Shown: positions 35,735 through 58,168 of the stretch, piece after piece
Layout: each line of letters begins with the position of its first letter
Numbering within the stretch: the first letter of the stretch is position 1
Origin: Ilumatobacter coccineus YM16-304
Lineage (GTDB): Bacteria > Actinomycetota > Acidimicrobiia > Acidimicrobiales > Ilumatobacteraceae
Direction of reading: 5' to 3'
Assembly: GCF_000348785.1 (NCBI RefSeq)
Contig: NC_020520.1
Span: 434,001 to 498,000 of the forward strand
Length of the DNA stretch: 64,000 bases
Translations under genes and position numbers: made by a program
Notes under the pieces: generated by a model
What the model was told of the DNA's origin: nothing
What the model saw: the letters and a program-made list of their open reading frames with translations, nothing else
Databases searched by the model: none

Positions 35735-36703
35735 TCAGGGAGCGATGATCGCTTCGAGGCGTGCGTACGACGTCTCGATCCCGTCGGCCATCCCGGTGGC
35801 GAGGATCTGATCGCGCAGCTCCTTCGTCGGGTACGTGATGACCACGGTGAGCAACGTGCCGCCGTCGACAGGGTGCAGTGTCATCTCATTGCGCGTCGAG
35901 GGCCCGTCGGTGCCGGCCATGCGCTCGGTGGTGACCGATCGCTGCGGCGGGTCGGCCTCGAGCAGTGTCCCTTCGAATCCGAAGGCGTTCTCGCCGTCGT
36001 CCGACTCCCAGCCATAGCGATAGGAGTCGCCGACCTCGACCGCCGGCTCGCACACCGGCATCGTCCAACCATCGGGGCCGAGCATCCACTGACGGATCAG
36101 CGCCGCGTCGTGGTGCGCCTGCCACACCTGCTCGACCGTGCCGCGAATGACCCGACTCGCACGCACTCGGGTGTCGTCGAGTTCGGTGAGATCGAGCGAG
36201 CCGGCGGCGAACGAAGCGAGGTCGGCGAGCACGGCGTCCATCTGACCGAACGCAGCCGTCGCTCCCTCGACCATGCCCATCGCCACGAGCTGCTCCATCG
36301 CGTCGACGCTCGGGAACGTGGTGACCGACGTGAAGCGCGAGCCGTCGGGCGTGCTCTCGAACGTCATCTCCATGGTCATCGACGGCATGTCATCGTTGGC
36401 TTCGCCATCGTCACCGGTGAACCCGTCGCGCGTGACGAGGCGACGCTGTGGCTCGATCGCCTCGACCACCCAGTACCCGCTCGACGTCTCGCCGTCGGGT
36501 CCGGTCATGAAGTAGTCGGAGCGGCCGCCGACGACCATGTCGTGGCGCGTGAACGTGGCGGGCCACTCGGGCGGCCCCCAGAACTTCTCGATCTGGCGCG
36601 GATCGACCCACGCGTTCCAGAGTCGTTCGACCGAGCAGGCGTAGTCGCCGACGAGAGTCATGGTCAGCGCGTCGGGGTCGGACGTGACAGAGGTGATGGG
36701 CAT
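35735..36703 (-). CDS. Tandem AHSA1/SRPBCC domain protein
   Basis: The 322-residue product contains two fused AHSA1-type domains. The first starts near residue 12 (MTLVGDYACSVERLWNAWVDP) and the second near residue 165 (VIRGTVEQVWQAHHDAALIRQWMLGPDG); each ends in a C-terminal helix after a YPTKELRDQILATGM or FPSVDAMEQLVAMGM motif. Single-domain homologues commonly pair with ArsR regulators, as here. These proteins bind hydrophobic ligands or modify regulator targets; the ligand is unknown. The start at 36703 lies 17 bases after the arsR stop, so the two are co-transcribed. Confidence 0.8.
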   Translation of the reverse strand: MPITSVTSDPDALTMTLVGDYACSVERLWNAWVDPRQIEKFWGPPEWPATFTRHDMVVGGRSDYFMTGPDGETSSGYWVVEAIEPQRRLVTRDGFTGDDGEANDDMPSMTMEMTFESTPDGSRFTSVTTFPSVDAMEQLVAMGMVEGATAAFGQMDAVLADLASFAAGSLDLTELDDTRVRASRVIRGTVEQVWQAHHDAALIRQWMLGPDGWTMPVCEPAVEVGDSYRYGWESDDGENAFGFEGTLLEADPPQRSVTTERMAGTDGPSTRNEMTLHPVDGGTLLTVVITYPTKELRDQILATGMADGIETSYARLEAIIAP

Positions 36704-45492: not shown

Positions 45493-45496
45493 CCCA

Positions 45497-45531
45497 CCCG
45501 GACGCTTTGTCTCAGAGACAAACCGTCCGGG
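45497..45531. repeat. Palindromic repeat copy 1 (35 bp)
   Basis: An inverted repeat centred on A45514 with inner arms TTTGTCTC/GAGACAAA and outer arms CCCGGACGC/CCGTCCGGG, one mismatched pair. It lies 5 bases after a stop codon and upstream of the first peptidoglycan-binding gene. Confidence 0.9.
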
Positions 45532-45575
45532 TTCGAAGCACCGTCCGGATCGTGAAATGCGGAGGGGAGCGGGGA

Positions 45576-45670
45576 GGGGAAGTCTCCCCATTCCGGGATT
45601 CGACGGGGTCGTTCATTGTGGTTCTCAACACCTCGGACATCCGGTCCGGGGCACCTCGAAAGGGAATCCA
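45576..45670 (+). promoter_or_regulatory. Conserved leader of peptidoglycan-binding gene 1
   Basis: A GGGGA-AGTC-TCCCC hairpin (45576-45589) followed by a leader that aligns to the one at 48782-48876. The hairpin start is exactly 95 bases from the ATG in both. The end TCGAAAGGGAATCC carries the Shine-Dalgarno. Confidence 0.6.
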
Positions 45671-46372
45671 ATGAACAAGCTCAACACCATCAACCAGAAC
45701 ACCACCGCCAAGAACATCATCACCAAGAAGGCTCGTCTCGCCGGAAGCATCGCTGCCGTCGCCGTCGCCCTCACCGCCTGCGGCGGCGCCCAGAGCTCCA
45801 CCGCAACCGAGTCCCAGATCCCCGCCGTTCCAGCCGTCGCCGAGCAGGCCCCAGCCGCTGAGCAGACGCCGGCCATCGAGCAGGCCCCGGCGGTCGAGGA
45901 AGCCCCGACCATCGAGGAAGCGTCGGCCGTCGAGGAAGTCCCGGCCGTCGAGGAAGCCCCAGCCGTCGAGCAGACGCCGGCGCCGATGCCGATCGTGGAA
46001 GAAGCTCCGGCCGTCGATCCCGTCGACCCCACGCCGGCCAACGACGTCGCCGACGCCGAGTTCGACGACAGCTACGCCCCGACGAACGGCGAGGCGGTCA
46101 ACCAGTTGATCCCCGCATCGAGCCCCGACTTCCCGTGCGTCGAATACATCGAGGCCACGGAGCTGCCGTTGTTCCCCTGCTCGAAGGGCGAACTCGTCGT
46201 TCAACTGCAGCACGACCTGCAGTGGAACGGCACGCCGCACACGGTCGACGGTTACTTCGGTGAAGACACCTACCTGGCGCTGCAGGGCATGCAGAGCGCC
46301 TGGGGGATGTACCCCACCGGCATCATGGACCAGGCCATGGAGACCGTGATCTCGTACATCTACAGCCACTGA
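45671..46372 (+). CDS. Peptidoglycan-binding lipoprotein with Pro/Ala/Glu repeats
   Basis: The 233-residue product has a signal peptide with lipobox LTAC then GGAQSS, a Pro/Ala/Glu-rich repeat linker (units such as APAVEEAP and APAVEQTP, res about 55-125) suited to spanning the cell wall, and a C-terminal PG_binding_1-like domain (GELVVQLQHDLQWNG, VDGYFGEDTYLALQGMQSAWG, TGIMDQAM). It shares its upstream leader and domain plan with the minus-strand gene at 47915. The start is preceded by AAAGGG. Expression is probably set by the shared leader. Confidence 0.8.
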   Translation: MNKLNTINQNTTAKNIITKKARLAGSIAAVAVALTACGGAQSSTATESQIPAVPAVAEQAPAAEQTPAIEQAPAVEEAPTIEEASAVEEVPAVEEAPAVEQTPAPMPIVEEAPAVDPVDPTPANDVADAEFDDSYAPTNGEAVNQLIPASSPDFPCVEYIEATELPLFPCSKGELVVQLQHDLQWNGTPHTVDGYFGEDTYLALQGMQSAWGMYPTGIMDQAMETVISYIYSH

Positions 46373-46412
46373 CCACCCCGAACCCTCCGTCGGCCCGACG
46401 GTCGACCGCTAC

Positions 46413-46445
46413 CCGGACACCTTGTCTCTGAGACAAGGTGTCCGG
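46413..46445. repeat. Palindromic repeat copy 2 (33 bp)
   Basis: A perfect inverted repeat with arms CCGGACACCTTGTCTC and its complement around a central T. It differs from copy 1 at paired positions, so the dyad is kept while sequence changes. It ends 7 bases before the end of the decayed hydrolase gene. Confidence 0.9.
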
Positions 46446-46451
46446 TTCGCG

Positions 46452-46856
46452 TCAGGCGGGGGTGTGGCCGATGAGCCACGCGACGAGATCGGCGGTCACC
46501 TCGTCGCGGTTGGTCTCGTTGAGGATCTCGTGACGGGCATCGGGGTACACCGTCACCGTCGAGCACCGTCGATCCCGACAGCACCACGCCCGTGTACAAA
46601 GGCGAGTGCTGGGTGATGACCGCCTGCGCTGCGAACGATCCCATCGACTGGCCGAACAGCAACAGCGGCAACCCCTCGTGAGCGACGGCGATCGCTTCGC
46701 CGGACTACGCCACGTCGGCGACCAATCCGCCGGAAACCAGCGTCTCCGAAGTCACCGAGCGCGTCGGTCCGTCCTGACCTGTGCGACCGTGGCCGCGATG
46801 ATCGGTCGCGAACGCGAGGAACCCGGCCTCGTCGAGCGCCAGCGCGACCCAGGCGA
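46452..46856 (-). pseudogene. Decayed alpha/beta hydrolase (monoacylglycerol-lipase-like)
   Basis: Minus-strand remnants of a serine hydrolase: FLAFATDHRGHGRTG, an in-frame TAG after LVADVA, then LPLLLFGQSMGSFAAQ (nucleophile-elbow GQSMG) and VVLSGSTVLDG. The coding sense then jumps directly into the C-terminal end VYPDARHEILNETNRDEV with the catalytic-His region, ending IGHTPA-stop. The N-terminus and about 100 central residues are missing, there is a stop and the frame shifts, so it is non-functional. It is bracketed almost exactly by palindrome copies 2 and 3. Confidence 0.8.
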
Positions 46857-46891
46857 ACCGGACGCTTTGTCTCAGAGACAAACCGTCCGGT
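46857..46891. repeat. Palindromic repeat copy 3 (35 bp)
   Basis: The same core as copy 1 (ACCGGACGC outer arm, TTTGTCTC inner arm, central A at 46874), one mismatched pair. It abuts the truncated 5' side of the hydrolase remnant and lies 33 bases before the methyltransferase start. Confidence 0.9.
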
Positions 46892-46924
46892 GGGATCGTT
46901 GGGTCGGTCGGCGAGGCTGTGGGG

Positions 46925-47845
46925 ATGCGTGAGTCTGCATCGGCAACATCCGACGTGATCAGCTTCGACGGGTCGGTCGTCGTGCTCGATGGCGGTCTCT
47001 CGACCGCACTCGAAGTCGGTGGCGCCGACCTGAGCGACGATCTGTGGACTGCCCGGCTGCTCCGTCACGACCCCGCGGCGATCGTCGCCGCCCACGCCGC
47101 CTACTTCGAAGCCGGTGCCGACGTCGCCATCACCGCCAGCTATCAGGCGAGTGTGTCCGGCTTCGTGGCGGCGGGTATCGAACGAGCGGAGGCCGAGCGG
47201 CTCATCGCGTCGAGCGTCGAGCTTGCCAAGGAGGCCCGAGACCAGATCACTCCGGGAGAGCGCCCGCTGCTCGTCGCTGCGTCGGTCGGCCCGTACGGGG
47301 CGGTGCTCGCCGACGGCTCCGAGTACCGCGGGGACTACGGCCTCTCCGCCGGAGAGTTGCGTGACTTCCACCTGCCGCGCCTCGAGCTGCTTGCCTCGGC
47401 CGAACCGGATCTCTTCGCCGTCGAGACGATCCCCGACGTCCGCGAAGCCGAGGTCCTCGTCCCGCTCCTCGACGAGGTCGGCCTGCCCGCGTGGTTCTCG
47501 TACACGGTGGCCGACGGCCGCACTCGCGCCGGTCAGCCGCTCGACGAGGCGTTCGCAACCCTCGCCGGAAGTTCGTCGATCGTCGCAGCGGGTGTCAACT
47601 GCTCGGCGCCAGAGGACGTGCTGGCGGCGATCCACGCGGTGGTCGTAGCGACCGGTCTGCCGGGTGTCGCGTACCCGAACCGCGGCGAACGATGGGATCC
47701 CGCCACCAACAGCTGGACCGGAGCCGACTCGTACTCGCTCGACCTCGTCCCCGAATGGATCGCCGCGGGAGCTCGCCTCATCGGCGGCTGCTGCCAGATC
47801 AGCCCCGGCGACATCGCCGAACTCGCCCGCACCATCCGCTCCTGA
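46925..47845 (+). CDS. mmuM: Homocysteine S-methyltransferase
   Basis: The 306-residue barrel enzyme has the family N-terminus VVLDGGLSTALE, the catalytic zinc cysteine in AAGVNCSAPEDV and the paired cysteines of LIGGCCQISPGDI near the C-terminus. It transfers a methyl group from S-methylmethionine (or similar donors) to homocysteine to form methionine. The ATG at 46925 has GAGGCT 6 bases upstream; a GTG at 46919 is an alternative. It stands alone between palindrome copies 3 and 4. Confidence 0.88.
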   Translation: MRESASATSDVISFDGSVVVLDGGLSTALEVGGADLSDDLWTARLLRHDPAAIVAAHAAYFEAGADVAITASYQASVSGFVAAGIERAEAERLIASSVELAKEARDQITPGERPLLVAASVGPYGAVLADGSEYRGDYGLSAGELRDFHLPRLELLASAEPDLFAVETIPDVREAEVLVPLLDEVGLPAWFSYTVADGRTRAGQPLDEAFATLAGSSSIVAAGVNCSAPEDVLAAIHAVVVATGLPGVAYPNRGERWDPATNSWTGADSYSLDLVPEWIAAGARLIGGCCQISPGDIAELARTIRS

Positions 47846-47859
47846 CCCCGGACGCGCAA

Positions 47860-47896
47860 AACCGGACGGTTTGTCTCAGAGACAAACCGTCCGGTT
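47860..47896. repeat. Palindromic repeat copy 4 (37 bp)
   Basis: A perfect dyad centred on A47878 with outer arms AACCGGACGG/CCGTCCGGTT and inner arms TTTGTCTC/GAGACAAA. It lies between convergent genes, 14 bases after the mmuM stop, where it could serve as a bidirectional terminator. Confidence 0.92.
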
Positions 47897-47914
47897 GGTG
47901 GCGGCGGGGCGGGG

Positions 47915-48781
47915 TCAGTCGTCGAAGTGGCTGAACCAGGAGATGCAGTCGTCGATGTCCTGCACGCTGAACTCGATCTGGCCGGCCGAGCTGTTCGCCA
48001 CGGTCAGGACGTGGTCGCAATAGGCGTCGAACGGGAAGTCACGCTCGTAGTCGCTGACCCAGCCGTCGCCGTTGACGTCGAGCACGGGGTCGTAGGCGTT
48101 GTCGGCACCGTCGCCGTGCCAGTCGGCGGCGTCGCACATCGAGCCATCGGCGTTGCAGCTCGGATCGATCTTCGCGATGACGTCCAGCAGTTCCTGCGTG
48201 ACGAGGCCGTTCTGCTCGAAGCCCCACACGCCCTGCATGTACTTCACGGCCTCCAGGGTCTGCGGACCGAAGTAGCCGTCGGTCGAGACGTCGGCGAACG
48301 GGGTCAGCAGGCGTTGCAGATCGGAGACCCAGTCGCCCTTGTCGCACAGTTGGAGCGGCAGGTTGTTCGTGGCGTTGTACGTGGGGCAGGGTCCGCTGTC
48401 GACCTGCGTCGGAGCGGCGGCCGGTGCCGGCGCCTCGGCGGCGGGAGGGGCGGTCGTGTCGACCAACGCCGGATCGATCTCGACGGGGGCGGCCTCGAGG
48501 GTCACGATCGGATCGATCACCACAACCTCGCTGGCCGAGGAGTCGGAGGCGGGAGCCTCGGCGACCACCGGCGACGCGGCGTCGACCGGTGCGGCCACCG
48601 CCGGAGCTTCGACGGCCGGGGTGACATCGGCCGAGGCTGCGCTGCTGCTGCCACCGAGGGCGACGGCCGAGCCGATGCCGATCAGAGCGACGAAGGCGGC
48701 GGTGGTGGCGCCGATCGCAATGTTGCGGCCGGTGTTGTCGGCGAGGTGGTTCTGGTTGCTGGTGGTGGTGAAGTCGTTCAT
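47915..48781 (-). CDS. Exported peptidoglycan-binding protein with EF-hand-like end
   Basis: The 288-residue product has an N-terminal hydrophobic span (IAIGATTAAFVALIGIGSAVALGG) after a polar start, an Ala/Pro-rich wall-spanning linker, and a PG_binding_1-like domain (KGDWVSDLQRLLTPF, STDGYFGPQTLEAVKYMQGVWG, NGLVTQELLDVI). It ends in a C-terminal region with a possible calcium-binding loop DVNGDGWVSDYE and cysteines. It is paralogous in plan to the gene at 45671 and shares its 5' leader. The N-terminus (MNDFTTTSNQNHL) resembles that of the paralogue. Confidence 0.8.
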   Translation of the reverse strand: MNDFTTTSNQNHLADNTGRNIAIGATTAAFVALIGIGSAVALGGSSSAASADVTPAVEAPAVAAPVDAASPVVAEAPASDSSASEVVVIDPIVTLEAAPVEIDPALVDTTAPPAAEAPAPAAAPTQVDSGPCPTYNATNNLPLQLCDKGDWVSDLQRLLTPFADVSTDGYFGPQTLEAVKYMQGVWGFEQNGLVTQELLDVIAKIDPSCNADGSMCDAADWHGDGADNAYDPVLDVNGDGWVSDYERDFPFDAYCDHVLTVANSSAGQIEFSVQDIDDCISWFSHFDD

Positions 48782-48876
48782 CGGATTCCCTTTCGAAGTT
48801 CCCCGAACCGGTTGCTCGAGGTGATGAACACCACACTGAGGGAGACGCCGAGAATCCGGAATGGGGAGAGTTCCCC
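48782..48876 (-). promoter_or_regulatory. Conserved leader of peptidoglycan-binding gene 2
   Basis: A GGGGA-ACTC-TCCCC hairpin (48863-48876) and the leader down to TTCGAAAGGGAATCCG before the ATG. The hairpin-to-ATG distance of 95 bases equals that of the paralogue at 45671. Confidence 0.6.
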
Positions 48877-48888
48877 TCCGACGAAGGG

Positions 48889-48919
48889 CGGACGGTTTGT
48901 CTCTGAGACAAAGCGTCCG
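48889..48919. repeat. Palindromic repeat copy 5 (31 bp)
   Basis: The same repeat in the opposite orientation to copy 1, centred on T48904, one mismatch. It lies between divergent genes, so it is not a terminator for either. Confidence 0.88.
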
Positions 48920-48926
48920 GGGGTGT

Positions 48927-48938: not shown

Positions 48939-50003
48939 ATGGGGGCGAGACTCGACGAGCAGGCGGCAGCGATGGTGACGGCGTTGCATCCCGACGCGGA
49001 ACAGGTCGACGTCGTCGACTTCGGGCCGATTCCGGGCGGATTCTCGCGTGAGACCTATTGCTTCGACGCGATCATCCACACCGCCGGCGCGGAGGAGCGG
49101 CACCCACTCATTCTCCGCAAGGATCCGCCCGCCTCCGTCGCCATCCTCCACACGAGTCGGGCCGTCGAACACGACCTGATCGAGACGATCCGGCTCAACA
49201 CCAACGTGCCCGTCACCCAGAGCCTCGGCCACGAGATGGACCCCGACGTGTTCGGTGAGCCGGCCATGATCATCCGCCGAGCCGACGGCAACTCACACAC
49301 GTCCGATCTCTTCCACGACGGACCCGACAGTGACCAGGTCGACGACGTGGTGCGCCATCTGTGCGAATCACTCGTCGAACTGCACCAGAGCGACATCGCG
49401 ACCCTCGACCCTGCCGGCGTCCTCGACGATCCTCGTGGCGTCGGCATCGACGTCACCGACTGGGACTCCTACATGGACTCCACCTTCGAGTACTACCTGT
49501 CGAGCTACCACGGCCTCAACCGCGACCCGATGCTGTGCATCCTCCTCGACGCATTCCTCACACTGCGACGAACCAAACCGAGGCCGCTACCGCTCTCGGT
49601 CGTCCACGGCGACTTCAACCCGGCCAACTTCCTGTACGCCGACGGCAAGGTCACGGCGCTCATCGACTGGGAGAACGCCCGAATCGGCGATCCGCGAGAA
49701 GATCTCGGATGGATGGCGATGATGGACACGCTGTCGAACACGAACATCATGTCGCACCCGGCCGATGAAGGCGGGTTCCTCGCCTACTACAACAAGCTCA
49801 CCGGCTACGAGATCACCGAAGCCGAGATCGGCTACTTCATCCTGTTCGGCAGCGCCAACATCGCGGTGCCGGTCAACGAAGCGATCAAGCGCCGGGTCGA
49901 CGGCGAGAGCCGCGAACTCGTGCATCTCTACATGATCCAGTCGAGCGCCCCGGCGTTGCCCGGGATCGGCCGTCTGCTCGGCTACCCGGGAGTGCCCGCA
50001 TGA
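48939..50003 (+). CDS. APH-like phosphotransferase (FadE36/ACAD10-type kinase)
   Basis: The 354-residue product has the aminoglycoside-phosphotransferase fold: LILRKDPP (ATP-site lysine), a catalytic loop SVVHGDFNPANFLYADG and a metal-binding ALIDWENARIGDPREDLGW. The closest functional group appears to be the actinobacterial APH-like kinases linked to acyl-CoA metabolism, not antibiotic resistance, but the substrate is unknown. The start is fixed by a -10 box 6 bases upstream. It overlaps the next gene (ATGA). Confidence 0.82.
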   Translation: MGARLDEQAAAMVTALHPDAEQVDVVDFGPIPGGFSRETYCFDAIIHTAGAEERHPLILRKDPPASVAILHTSRAVEHDLIETIRLNTNVPVTQSLGHEMDPDVFGEPAMIIRRADGNSHTSDLFHDGPDSDQVDDVVRHLCESLVELHQSDIATLDPAGVLDDPRGVGIDVTDWDSYMDSTFEYYLSSYHGLNRDPMLCILLDAFLTLRRTKPRPLPLSVVHGDFNPANFLYADGKVTALIDWENARIGDPREDLGWMAMMDTLSNTNIMSHPADEGGFLAYYNKLTGYEITEAEIGYFILFGSANIAVPVNEAIKRRVDGESRELVHLYMIQSSAPALPGIGRLLGYPGVPA

Positions 50004-50506
50004 ACACGTCACCGTCCATCGATTCGATTCTCGAAGGCGTCATCATGACCATCGACGACGAGATCATTCCGGCGCTCGACAACCCCAAGGCCCACGCCAG
50101 CGCGCAGATGATCCAATCACTGCTGCAAGGCCTCCGCCAGACGCTTCCGGTGTTCGACGCCTCGCTCGTCGACGAGCACAACGACATGATCCGCACGCTT
50201 CGCGATGCTGCCGCAGCGCTCGGCGACGCTGCGGGCCCGGCGGCCGATCGGGTGCGCGAACGGGCGCAGACGTTCGGCTCGTGGAGCGATCTTCCGGCAC
50301 CGTCCGACCGCGACGACGTCGTCGCCGCGCACACCGAACTCGGACGGGCGATCGAAGCGTCGTTCCTCGACCTCGACGAACTCCAGCGCGCCGGGGTCGG
50401 AGCGGCCGACGACGCCGTGCAGGTGATTCGAACACATCTCGGCCCGCGCTACGTCCGTGAAGCCGCCACGATCATGGTCGGCGAGGGGATGCTCGGCCGC
50501 AACTGA
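50000..50506 (+). CDS. Hypothetical helical protein coupled to the APH-like kinase
   Basis: The 168-residue product is predicted almost entirely helical, with no signal peptide and no cysteines. Segments such as MTIDDEIIPALDNPKAHAS and GPRYVREAATIMVGEGM are distinctive, but I do not recognise a family. The ATG at 50000 overlaps the stop of the APH-like kinase, so it is likely a functional partner of that kinase. Confidence 0.65.
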   Translation: MNTSPSIDSILEGVIMTIDDEIIPALDNPKAHASAQMIQSLLQGLRQTLPVFDASLVDEHNDMIRTLRDAAAALGDAAGPAADRVRERAQTFGSWSDLPAPSDRDDVVAAHTELGRAIEASFLDLDELQRAGVGAADDAVQVIRTHLGPRYVREAATIMVGEGMLGRN

Positions 50507-50524
50507 CGACGGCCCACCCGCCGA

Positions 50525-51187
50525 TCACACGCTCGGGGCGTCGTCGCCTCGGAGTTGCCAGAACGGCGAGGTGAGGCCCGCCGACGTGAGCAGCGCCTGC
50601 AACTCGTCGAGCGACTTGGCGACGAACGGTTCGGCCAACCGATCGCCGTACCACCCCTGCGTGAGCGGCCACATCGCGCTCATCGGAACACTGTCTCCAA
50701 CGGCGGGCCCGACGTCCTTCGACCGAAGGAACGTGATGGTGCGTCAAGTTCGAACGATGTCGCGCCACCAGTGTCGGGCCTCGATCTCGAAGTGCACGTG
50801 ACCCTCCGTGAGACCGAGGACGTCGTCGACGACGTCGAACTCCAGCGGCTCGCCGCTATCGGCCCAGACCGACTCGATGTGCACGTCGTCGTCGATCGCC
50901 GCAGCGATCGCGAGCGAGTCCCACGCGCAGTTCGCCCACCACGATCGATCGCCCGAGCGCACCCGATGCTCGGTGGGCACGGCGGAGAACGGGAGGGCCA
51001 TGCGAATCTCGCCCGCCCGCTCCGGTCGGTCGTCGAGCACGATCACGTGCGCATCGTGCAGCCGCCGCAGTTGTCGGTCGGCAACGTCGGGATCACCGAT
51101 CCGCTCGACCAACTCACCGCGCGTCGGCGCCATCCCCGTCGAGGCGAACCGACGGTAGATCACCGCGCGCAGATCGAGGTCGTCCAC
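50525..51187 (-). CDS. MerB-like organomercurial lyase homologue, predicted selenoprotein (Sec148)
   Basis: A conventional reading ends at the TGA at 50744-50746. Read through as selenocysteine, the frame gives 220 residues (E. coli plasmid MerB is 212). Seen: C87 and D90 in NCAWDSL, U148 in IVRT-U-RTITFLRS, and a continuing coherent C-terminus (MSAMWPLTQGWYGDRLAE, ELQALLTSAGLTSPFW). Known: MerB uses Cys96, Asp99 and Cys159 to cleave the C-Hg bond; the spacings 3 and 63 match 3 and 61 here, so the TGA sits on the second catalytic cysteine. Upstream parts also fit, with a winged-helix-like N-terminus and PFSAVPTEHRV. The GTG start is fixed by TACGGT 7 bases upstream. Inference: a Sec-containing C-Hg lyase or related enzyme. 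The alternative is a TGC-to-TGA nonsense mutation. Confidence 0.8.
50712..50746 (-). promoter_or_regulatory. Putative bacterial SECIS element after the UGA
   Basis: Numbering the UGA as 1-3, bases 13-35 fold into a hairpin: ACG/CGT, then one unpaired U at 16 or 17, then a 6-bp helix TCCTTC/GAAGGA capped by a GGTC tetraloop (23-26). The E. coli fdhF SECIS has bulged U17 and loop GGUC at 22-25, the features read by SelB. The element lies within coding sequence, as bacterial SECIS elements do. Confidence 0.8.
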
Positions 51188-51194
51188 GTCGACC

Positions 51195-51200
51195 ACCGTA
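51195..51200 (-). promoter_or_regulatory. -10 box (TACGGT), leaderless promoter of the MerB-like gene
   Basis: TACGGT on the minus strand with 7 bases to the GTG at 51187. It shows the gene has an intact promoter of the local type. Confidence 0.5.
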
Positions 51201-51237
51201 CGCCACCGCTCACTCGGCGCCTGACGCGCCGCCGCCC

Positions 51238-51279
51238 GGCGCCGGGAAAGCCGTCGCAGGGCGCCGGGAAAGCCGTCGC
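51238..51279. repeat. Two direct 20-bp repeats, period 22
   Basis: GGCGCCGGGAAAGCCGTCGC occurs at 51238-51257 and 51260-51279, in the gap between the divergent MerB-like and phosphoesterase genes. Outer arms CACTCGGCGCC and GGCGCTGAGTG form an imperfect inverted repeat around them. A regulator-binding role is possible. Confidence 0.6.
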
Positions 51280-51316
51280 CGGAGGCCCGGCGCTGAGTGT
51301 CGGCCAGACTGGCGGA

Positions 51317-52330
51317 GTGGAGGAGGCGCGGCGATTCGTGATCCAACAGCACGATGCGACGCGCCTTCACTGGGACCTGCGACTCGAGCACGAGGGAGTC
51401 CTGCTGTCGTGGGCGCTCCCGCGAGGTGTGCCGTGGAACCCGAAGGAGAATCGGCTCGCGGTGCAGACCGAGGATCACTCGCTCGACTTCCTCGACCGCG
51501 AGGGCGACGACTTCGACGGTCGGTTCGGCGCCGGCCGCAGCACGCAGTGGGACACCGGCACCTACGAACTCCACAAGATCGAACCGTCGAAGGACGACCC
51601 CACCGGCGCGCCGGTGAAGCTGGTCGTCACACTCCACGGCCGCCGCGTCTCCGGCAAGTATTCGCTGTTCTCGATGCGCGGCTCACGCGACTGGTTGATC
51701 CACCGGATGGACCCACCCGACGACGAACACCGCAAGCCGGTGCCGATCGGTGTTCGGCCGATGATCGCGACCCCGGGCGAGATGCCCGTCGACTCGCCGA
51801 GCGACTGGTCGTACGAGACTCGTTGGAACGGCATCCGGGCCATCGTCACCGACGACACGGGCCGTGTGTTGATCACCGGTGCCGACGCCGCCGACATCTC
51901 GATCCACTTCCCCGAGATCCGCCGGATCGGTCGAGCGCTCGGCCACCGCGAGGTGATCCTCGACGGAATGATCGTGCCCGTCGACCCGACGACCGGCACC
52001 GTGCTCCACGATCGTGCAGGCCTCACACGACGGCTGAACATCACGAGCGACAGCGGTGCACGCAATGCCGCCAAGACCGCGCCCGTCGTGTTCATGGCGT
52101 TCGACATCCTCTGGATCGAGGGACGACCGATCACCGACCTCCCGTGGGAGCTGCGCCGTCGCCAACTCGACGATCTCCGCCTGGACGGCCCTGGCTGGCG
52201 CACCAGTCCGAGCCTCAGCGTCGACGAGGCGTACGGCGCGATCGATGCCGAGACCGGCATCGTCGCCAAGCGCCGCGACTCCGTCTACACGATCGACCGG
52301 CCGACCCCCGATTGGATCGACACGGCCTGA
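51317..52330 (+). CDS. LigD-type 3'-phosphoesterase fused to a degenerate ligase domain
   Basis: The 337-residue product starts with a LigD-like phosphoesterase domain whose metal site is complete (H12, H18, D20 in IQQHDATRLHWDLRLEHEG, plus DHSLDF). It continues with an ATP-dependent-ligase adenylation domain in which motif I reads YETRWNGIRA: the adenylated lysine and the aspartate of KxDG are Arg and Asn. Later motifs persist (EVILDGMIVPVD, GIVAKRRDSVY), but there is no OB-fold domain. It is therefore probably a 3'-end-healing protein with a ligase-like scaffold that cannot adenylate. The GTG start has CAGACT 6 bases upstream. It is divergent from the MerB-like gene. Confidence 0.8.
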   Translation: MEEARRFVIQQHDATRLHWDLRLEHEGVLLSWALPRGVPWNPKENRLAVQTEDHSLDFLDREGDDFDGRFGAGRSTQWDTGTYELHKIEPSKDDPTGAPVKLVVTLHGRRVSGKYSLFSMRGSRDWLIHRMDPPDDEHRKPVPIGVRPMIATPGEMPVDSPSDWSYETRWNGIRAIVTDDTGRVLITGADAADISIHFPEIRRIGRALGHREVILDGMIVPVDPTTGTVLHDRAGLTRRLNITSDSGARNAAKTAPVVFMAFDILWIEGRPITDLPWELRRRQLDDLRLDGPGWRTSPSLSVDEAYGAIDAETGIVAKRRDSVYTIDRPTPDWIDTA

Positions 52331-52376
52331 CGCTGCCTGCGCCGACCCGTCGCGCCGGAGATCGACCGTGCGAGCG

Positions 52377-53027
52377 TCAGGCGCCGACTGACGCGGTGCG
52401 GGCCCAGACGGCGTAGAGGGGGTCGGTGGGTGCGCCGGGGTTGCGATGGGCGATCGTCGGATCACCGAACCCCGCCGTCAGTTCGAAGTAGCGGGCAACG
52501 ATCGCGCAGCGGCCGCGCTCGTCGTTCGCGAGCCAACCGCGGATCGCCTTGGTCGGAAAGCAGCGGTTCGAGAAGGTGCAGGCGAACACGCCGCCGGGTC
52601 GAAGCACGCGGGCGACCTCGGTGAACACGTCCAGTGGGCGGGTCAGGTAGTCGACCGAGACGCAACAGGTCACCGCGTCGAACTTCCCGCTGGGGTACGG
52701 GAGCGCCGGGTCGACGTTGAGATCACCGACCGTCCAGTCGTCGGCCATCTCGTTGGCGGCCAACTCGGCGGCGTTCATGCCGGTGATCGTGAGCCGAGCC
52801 GGTCTGGTCGAGAAGTGTGAGATCCACGACGAACAGATGTCGAGCACGTCGCCGGTCAGGCCGAGTTCGTCGTACAGCTCGCCGACCGCCTCGATCGCGC
52901 CGTCGTCGATGTGGGTGACGAAGCGATCGAACGAATAGAAGGCGCTGTCGTCGGATTCGTCCTGACGCGAGAAGAACCCCGGAGGGAACTCCGTCGCATG
53001 AGGATCGCGGGCCGCCGTGTCGTTCAC
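52377..53027 (-). CDS. SAM-dependent methyltransferase
   Basis: The 216-residue class I methyltransferase has motif I in GDVLDICSSWISHF (a variant without the usual GxGxG), an acidic motif II region, PSGKFDAVTCCVSVDYLTRP as motif IV and ARVLRPGGVFACTFSNR as motif V/VI. The Methyltransf_11 layout fits a small-molecule substrate, which cannot be named. The GTG start at 53027 has GAGGAT 6 bases upstream. Its 3' end converges with the phosphoesterase-ligase gene. Confidence 0.8.
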   Translation of the reverse strand: MNDTAARDPHATEFPPGFFSRQDESDDSAFYSFDRFVTHIDDGAIEAVGELYDELGLTGDVLDICSSWISHFSTRPARLTITGMNAAELAANEMADDWTVGDLNVDPALPYPSGKFDAVTCCVSVDYLTRPLDVFTEVARVLRPGGVFACTFSNRCFPTKAIRGWLANDERGRCAIVARYFELTAGFGDPTIAHRNPGAPTDPLYAVWARTASVGA

Positions 53028-53461: not shown

Positions 53462-53499
53462 CGAACGCCCGCAAGCCGCCCCTGACCACCCACCGCCGA

Positions 53500-53763
53500 G
53501 GATGATCTCCGCCCAGGCCAGATGTCGTCGCGTGAGGGTGATTTCTGCCCAGGCCAGATGTCGTCGCGTGGCGCGCGTGAACCGGTTTTGCCCCTTCGAT
53601 GCGTCAGGGGTGACGGTTTGCCGGGGCAAAACCCGAAGTGTTGGCGTGAGGGTGATATTTGCCCAGGCCAGATGTGGTCGCGTGAGGGTGATTTGTGCCC
53701 AGGCCAGATGTCGTCGCGTGGGGGTGATTTTTGGCCAGGCTCGATGTGGTCGCGGGAGGGGGT
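53500..53763. repeat. 36-bp repeat array A, interrupted by a hairpin insert
   Basis: About five and a half units of a 36-bp sequence containing GCCCAGGCCAGATGT and GTCGCGTG. Two units are followed by a 77-bp insert (about 53572-53648), then three more. The insert has 11-bp arms GGTTTTGCCCC (53584-53594) and GGGGCAAAACC (53623-53633). No spacers separate the units, so it is not a CRISPR. The same unit recurs at 57120-57300. There is no gene in this 335-bp gap. Confidence 0.85.
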
Positions 53764-57343: not shown

Positions 57344-58168
57344 ATGCCAGGTCCTGCGTACGAGATCGTCCAACAGTTCGGGAACGTCGAAGACGACCAG
57401 CGGTACACGCGCCTCGTCGATCTGTTCGCCGACGGCGCCGTCTACTACGACCCGTTCTTCGGCGCGCAGCGCGGCAAGGCCGCCATCCGCACCTTCATGG
57501 AACACATGGAGGAGGTGGTGCCCGGATCGGGGGCCACGTTCGCGAGTTGGCACACCGAAGCCGACACCAACTGCGGTTGGGCGAAATGGGACATGGTCGC
57601 TCCGAACGCCGACGGTGAACCGGTCGCCGTGCCGGGCCAGAGCCTCTACCGACTCCGCCACGGCAAGGTCACCTTCGTGGCCGACTACCTCGACGCCGAT
57701 GCCTACCGCGCACTTCGGGGCGCCGACGCGAAGGTTCCCGACCACGCGTCGTCGATCGGGCTCTCGGCAGCCGACACGAACCGCGGCGGCTCCGGCGCAG
57801 ACCTGATGCGGCAGTTCTGGCAGATCCAGACGACGCAGCGCTACACCGAGCTGGCTGCCCTCTTCACCGACGACGCCGTGTTCACCGACCAGGTCAATGG
57901 CGAGATGCACGGCATCGACGAGATCACCGCCTTCCTCGCCCACATGGAGCAGAAGATCCCATCGGCAGGCGCGCGCTTCGAACTCGTCGACACGGCCGGC
58001 GACTCCACGGTCGGCTGGTCGCAGTGGTGGTATCGATTCGAGCACGGTGCCGTCCCCGGATGGACGTTGCACACGTTCGACGGTGGCAAGATCAGCGCCG
58101 ACCACGACTTCTTCGACGTCTCGCTCGCCCGCACGCTCGCGAGCCGAGCGTCGGCAGGCTCCCACTGA
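57344..58168 (+). CDS. Tandem SnoaL-like (NTF2-fold) protein
   Basis: The 274-residue product contains two NTF2-like domains, each with a conserved opening: YTRLVDLFADGAVYYDPFFG then IRTFMEHMEE, and YTELAALFTDDAVFTDQVNG then ITAFLAHMEQ. The cone-shaped fold binds small hydrophobic ligands or catalyses simple isomerisations and hydrolyses; no specific reaction can be assigned. The duplication is internal and old (about 30% similar by eye). The start is fixed by the -10 box. It converges with the metalloprotease gene. Confidence 0.8.
   Translation: MPGPAYEIVQQFGNVEDDQRYTRLVDLFADGAVYYDPFFGAQRGKAAIRTFMEHMEEVVPGSGATFASWHTEADTNCGWAKWDMVAPNADGEPVAVPGQSLYRLRHGKVTFVADYLDADAYRALRGADAKVPDHASSIGLSAADTNRGGSGADLMRQFWQIQTTQRYTELAALFTDDAVFTDQVNGEMHGIDEITAFLAHMEQKIPSAGARFELVDTAGDSTVGWSQWWYRFEHGAVPGWTLHTFDGGKISADHDFFDVSLARTLASRASAGSH

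Follow-up and report, generated by a model that had tools for sequence, protein, structure and literature searches.

The window analysed here, a stretch of 64,000 nucleotides from the genome of Ilumatobacter coccineus, contains a gene that, judging from its sequence and those of its relatives, is best read as a member of a selenoprotein family with the MerB (organomercurial lyase) fold, with an in-frame UGA at the position of the second mercury-binding cysteine (Table 1). The proposal of the earlier note, that this UGA encodes selenocysteine (Sec) at a mercury-ligand position, is supported by the conservation of the TGA, the occurrence of Cys as its alternative, a SECIS-like hairpin and the presence of the Sec machinery. 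The reading frame, its conservation, the hairpin, the machinery and the equivalence of the catalytic triad to that of MerB are direct results of computation, and from these we infer Sec insertion in the cell, the substrate and the fate of the mercury. Our joint reading, to which we assign a probability of roughly 0.7, is that of a MerB-fold protein with Sec148, which is decoded under the direction of the hairpin, and which would cleave organomercurials and pass the mercury on to thiols.

Table 1 The predicted selenoprotein gene, its key codons and RNA element, and related double-TGA genes (positions in the window, except where a locus is named).
Feature	Position	Strand	Basis
MerB-like selenoprotein gene (predicted)	50525..51187	-	GTG start, 220 codons and TGA stop (50525-50527); PF03243 match
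UGA in frame at codon 148, predicted to encode selenocysteine where MerB has Cys159	50744..50746	-	Conservation, alignment
Cys87, equivalent of MerB Cys96 (mercury ligand)	50927..50929	-	Invariant in the 24 rows of alignment A1; aligned to MerB
Asp90, equivalent of MerB Asp99 (proton donor)	50918..50920	-	Invariant in the 24 rows of alignment A1; aligned to MerB
SECIS-like hairpin, 6 bp stem, GGUC loop (50721-50724), 19 nt past UGA	50715..50730	-	Covariation, fdhF control
Codons CGG TCG (R155 S156) carrying the hairpin loop	50720..50725	-	40/42 distinct TGA genes, 0/2 Cys genes
Double-TGA MerB-like gene (predicted double-selenocysteine)	L108:432-1118
Double-TGA MerB-like gene (predicted double-selenocysteine)	L109:495-1181	-
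Double-TGA MerB-like gene (predicted double-selenocysteine)	L110:242-928	-
Double-TGA MerB-like gene (predicted double-selenocysteine)	L115 near 1945

Re-reading of the frame from the GTG at 51187 to 50528 on the minus strand agreed with the earlier description: the sole interruption is the TGA at 50746-50744, after which the frame continues for 72 sense codons, whereas standard translation stops after codon 147. The GTG start is aligned with GTG or ATG in the relatives L040-L042 and L044-L049. Constraint at the protein level persists downstream of the TGA, with dN/dS values between 0.12 and 0.79 in those 11 pairs, out of 12, that yielded a value (one of these being the Cys pair).

Relatives of the gene were collected from the window's own phylum, in which 25 of the 396 genomes match (own genome included), and from a species-genome collection, which contributed 24 loci. 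Across the 53 loci, window gene included, codon 148 is TGA in 43, Cys (TGC) in two and not scorable in eight; L013 and L050 represent a single gene, so that the distinct TGA genes number 42. The stop at codon 148 in these 42 genes is always TGA, and the relatives are 30-56% identical in protein to the window gene. Among the Chloroflexota, 39 of 301 genomes match, and 30 loci were read. When these are added to the 53 loci, the catalytic triad reads C-D-U in 55 of the 83 rows (52 distinct genes), C-D-C in 19 and U-E-U in one; in the remaining eight rows, at least one of the three letters is missing. The readable relatives show TGA or Cys exclusively at position 148, as had been anticipated for a genuine Sec site, with no other residue among the readable rows of the 83. 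Sequencing error, which had been raised as a possible source of the TGA, is excluded because the codon-148 TGA recurs in assemblies from five named phyla, the named members belonging to Actinomycetota, Chloroflexota, Gemmatimonadota, Acidobacteriota and Planctomycetota.

The affinity to MerB was detected by several routes. The protein matches the Pfam MerB family (PF03243) with E=6e-21 and 75.1 bits against a gathering score of 27, and a profile of 24 sequences compared with solved structures recovered MerB2 (E 1.3e-21) and MerB (1s6l; E 1.7e-10). In the profile alignment to solved MerB, C87, D90 and codon 148 correspond to Cys96, Asp99 and Cys159, respectively. This alignment confirms the equivalence of codon 148 to Cys159 that had been suggested from spacing; the placement of C87 and D90 and the distance of 61 residues between C87 and codon 148 (63 in MerB, counted from chain positions in the structure) were reproduced as well. 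Cys96, Asp99 and Cys159 are given as catalytic in MerB in PMC8261052, and are handled as mercury ligands in PMC4525700. Alignment A1, with its 24 rows, excludes L050, L028, L030 and L032 besides the unscorable loci and L013; F209-W210 is invariant in it, and the segment past about residue 190 lies mostly outside the MerB-aligned stretch.

The AF2 model, built with Cys substituted for Sec, has a mean pLDDT of 95.1; a Foldseek search with this model returned MerB entries as all of its top 11 matches, and the best match found with VIA-align was mercury-bound MerB2 (Z 16.6, 177 residues, 3.2 A). MerB2 (PDB 5c17) is thus the closest solved structure by both model and profile, but in the alignment its residue opposite Asp99 is Ser, and Sec is matched by Cys. 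With MerB itself (PDB 1s6l, 3f0o), the protein shares the fold and the three catalytic positions, but differs from it in the presence of Sec in place of Cys159, in a conserved C-terminal segment ending in FW, in the lack of a visible mer operon and in the rarity of MerA. With the curated MerB models the protein stays far short of the cut-offs (28.1 bits for NF033555, which requires 200, and 27.5 bits for NF009710, which requires 193), and no model in NCBIfam (June 2026) has its cut-off reached by the protein. A LexA-type winged-helix regulator was considered as well and rejected: the N-terminus shows a resemblance of this kind, but the scores are higher for the full-length matches to MerB.

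The hairpin downstream of the UGA is conserved along with it. The GGTC loop is present at +19 nt in 40 of the 42 distinct TGA genes and absent from the other two, the degenerate-looking L028 and L032, as well as from the Cys genes L017 and L019, in counts that omit L029, L031, L033, L034, L035, L037, L038 and L039, where position 148 is unscorable, and L013, which is identical to L050. Among the Chloroflexota TGA genes, GGTC was found in 13 of 14 (with two repeat loci already counted), L085 having AGTC instead; in the Chloroflexota Cys genes L080-L082, a GGTC lies at 11 nt rather than 19, and the arginine-serine pair is missing. Escherichia coli fdhF, used as a control, carries GGTC 18 nt past its TGA, within the hairpin that we take to be its SECIS; the two elements are alike in having this loop at a set distance past the UGA, although the fdhF hairpin belongs to a different protein family.

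Covariation in the stem was assessed in the loop-positive genes only, because L017 and L019 (Cys) and L028 and L032 (no GGTC loop) were omitted from the count. In these 40 genes, 94.0% of the cells are paired, compared to 52-66% when the stem is slid, and these slid controls, which preserve relatedness, are the better guide. Shuffle-based tests, which are inflated by kinship among the sequences, gave 24 double-change cells, where the shuffles average 5.6 (none of 500 shuffles as high), and changes on both sides in 4 of 7 pairs (4 of 500 shuffles as high); by one of the five measures, that of further pair types, the genes do not stand out, the observed value being equalled or exceeded in 151 of 500 shuffles.

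The loop-bearing codons are CGG TCG in all 40 loop-positive genes, against about 11% predicted from the family's own usage of arginine and serine codons. Since neither the arginine-serine pair nor the loop has survived in L017 and L019, the invariance of R155-S156 is best explained by a requirement of the RNA rather than the protein. When 54 nt from the UGA are folded as single sequences, the long-range pairs vary, and the apical hairpin appears in most TGA genes, being missing from some of the minimum-energy folds. A search of positions 49500-52500 against Rfam gave no match at E up to 1.

The earlier note had tied the Sec assignment to the machinery for Sec insertion, and all of its components were found in the genome: tRNA-Sec (66.5 bits, cut-off 47, with ARAGORN concordant), selB (275 bits), the adjoining selA (413 bits) and selD, the protein matches all exceeding curated cut-offs. 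The selD gene, which is located outside the window (G000:C1:2441028-2441951, L065), has one in-frame TGA itself, and SelD may also be a selenoprotein. Elsewhere, tRNA-Sec exceeds the cut-off in 21 of the 23 further TGA genomes, two being without it. Within the window's phylum, SelA is encoded in 18 of 20 TGA genomes versus 236 of 396 genomes overall (E 0.001; hypergeometric p 0.003), and the two TGA genomes that lack it are 68% and 73% complete. In Chloroflexota, SelA was detected in all 14 TGA genomes, in none of the three Cys-form genomes (L080-L082) and in 12 of the 13 genomes whose MerB relatives are all more distant. Because the three Cys-form genomes without SelA are closely grouped, they count as one event. 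Both Actinomycetota genomes with the Cys form, G013 and G028, retain SelA (tRNA-Sec exceeds the cut-off in G028), so Sec loss there did not follow the loss of the machinery.

Taken against this background, the reading of the UGA as a true stop, or of the gene as decayed, with a downstream frame that is open by chance, appears extremely improbable. Termination at codon 147 under the standard code and the degenerate appearance of L028 and L032 are in its favor, but it has to contend with the retention of the TGA in 42 distinct genes and the constraint past it, as well as with the covarying hairpin, the replacements by Cys and the co-occurrence with SelA.

In a phylogenetic tree of 68 rows, the predicted Sec forms together with five Cys forms make up a single branch of 53 rows (support 100/99), many of the inner forks being weakly supported. 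Mapping of the Sec label on this tree takes three changes, compared to a mean of 17.5 for shuffled labels (none of 500 shuffles as low). The best reading of this pattern is one gain of Sec, probably followed by two reversions to Cys, one in L017/L019 and the other in L080-L082. The tree omits L027, L028, L030, L032, L036, L068, L069 and L085, which are partial, degenerate or duplicate, and, apart from L084, the second subfamily.

Sec-containing MerB-like proteins have been reported before, and the statement in the earlier note that its author was aware of no established family of this kind has to be corrected: the SAO system includes SaoL (NF040728), a MerB-like "organometallic" lyase with Sec-containing members, which is already published (Haft and Gwadz 2023, as cited in PMC13188914), and a MerB-like selenoprotein is mentioned in PMC9312934. 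In the accessible portions of the literature searched, neither the clade itself nor its equivalence at Cys159 nor the range of phyla that it spans was found described; the corresponding portions of PMC12013277 and PMC2398784 contain no MerB or mercury term.

The gene might simply be one more SaoL of the published kind, belonging to the SAO system, but this we consider very unlikely. SaoL is the best-scoring curated model and, like the family predicted here, has Sec-containing members; yet the score of 38.1 bits is about 100 bits short of the cut-off of 140, L040, L051 and L108 are likewise under that cut-off, and none of the 396 genomes of the window's phylum contains a protein above it. Furthermore, the motif listed for SaoL in PMC13188914 is CU, whereas the window protein has T-U, and at the window locus five neighbours compared with NCBIfam matched no Sao model at E 0.01.

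Under the favored reading of a Sec-containing lyase, the hairpin just past the UGA would recruit SelB with Sec-tRNA(Sec) during translation, so that codon 148 would be decoded as Sec, yielding a protein of 220 residues. The selenolate would be ionised at neutral pH and would grip mercury more strongly than a thiolate. Sec148 and Cys87 would constitute the two-ligand site that holds the mercury atom in MerB, with Asp90 as the proton donor, and the likeliest reaction would be the protonolytic cleavage of the carbon-mercury bond in organomercurials, for example, methylmercury; the organomercurial lyase activity is a prediction. The mercury would then be handed over to small cellular thiols rather than to MerA, a step that we propose because most member genomes are without MerA over the cut-off. 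Transfer to thiols is a modelled route for MerB itself, according to PMC4525700.

The genomic context was examined by an all-against-all comparison of ORFs at 45 loci, with flanks of at most 1.5 kb at 20 loci, up to 4 kb at 24 and 6 kb in the window. The four large clusters of neighbours consist of the gene itself and overlapping ORFs, with the exception of one, a LigD gene; the smaller clusters, each made up of two or three loci, are named only in part. Across these 45 loci (flanks up to 6 kb), neither a recurrent mer gene nor a recurrent redox partner gene was seen near the MerB-like gene. MerA exceeds the cut-off in three of 44 member genomes, and the best match in the own genome scores 306 bits against a cut-off of 454. 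The neighbour comparison and the MerA count speak against a mer operon context, and, with no mer gene alongside and MerA rare, we infer the mercury role from the active site alone.

The same observations bear on what the protein acts upon. It is possible, though we consider it rather unlikely, that the Sec assignment is right and the substrate is another organometal or metalloid compound, such as organotin, organolead or organoarsenic, or that the protein only sequesters inorganic mercury. Apart from the scarcity of mer genes and MerA, the failure to reach the curated MerB cut-offs fits such a role, as does the term "organometallic", not organomercurial, that is applied to the published relative SaoL in PMC13188914. 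Retention of all three MerB catalytic positions, and mercury-bound MerB2 as the nearest solved structure, argue for an organomercurial instead. Still less probable is a selenol redox enzyme or peroxidase built on the MerB scaffold, with a selenenyl-sulfide between Cys87 and Sec148: redox roles are thought to be typical of most prokaryotic selenoprotein families (PMC9312934), but the aspartate that serves as the proton donor in MerB is invariant in alignment A1, and the neighbourhoods offer no recurrent redox partner. We retain organomercurial cleavage as the preferred function of the predicted Sec148 protein.

The neighbours of the gene in the window encode a phosphotransferase, a LigD-type ligase, a methyltransferase, a YjbR protein, a homocysteine methyltransferase and a molybdopterin dehydrogenase. 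Genes of the LigD-type DNA repair kind are located near four of the 45 loci (the window, at 51278-52327, L031, L057 and L059), a weak association that may be due to chance.

Selenium is known for gripping mercury, and evolution appears to have set it in the catalytic pair of a lyase. If this reading is correct, the family would provide a natural test of the effect of a selenolate on Hg-C cleavage and product release, and would represent an extra demethylation gene, possibly overlooked by merB surveys; the gene could escape such surveys because standard translation truncates it at the UGA.

A side branch in the Chloroflexota has TGA at the positions of both Cys96 and Cys159, in three paralogues of G555 and one gene of G773; L111 and L112 have Cys at the first ligand position and TGA at the second. 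In the double-TGA genes, the second TGA is followed by the GGTC loop. Downstream of the first TGA, the sequences of all four genes allow a GCUGGC/GCUGGC stem whose loop, at 17 nt, contains GU; this stem is part of the minimum-energy fold in only two of them. Sec at both mercury ligands in this side branch is a lead rather than a finding. The broader picture, in which the family would be a widespread, MerA-independent, Sec-based organomercury detoxification enzyme of environmental bacteria, with a side branch that has Sec at both ligands, has in our estimate about even odds of being right.

Several other observations concern additional TGA codons and repeats. L051:4001-4651 (identical to L068) contains a second in-frame TGA, 16 codons past the first, at a position where relatives such as L052-L054 have Cys; no GGTC loop was found after this second TGA. 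Two more long read-through frames in the window contain a TGA, at 35808 on the plus strand and at 57671 on the minus strand, that is followed by a hairpin with a GGT loop at 18-19 nt; these may be chance occurrences. A tandem-like array of 36-nt repeats occupies positions 53498-53757, where the ORF listing gives short repetitive proteins, and 18-nt repeats at 45823-46002 lie in an ORF and encode an acidic stretch of the EEAPAVEE type. Finally, five copies of a 39-nt near-palindrome, with a core of the TTTGTCTCAGAGACAAA type, are spread over 3.4 kb at positions 45496-48924.
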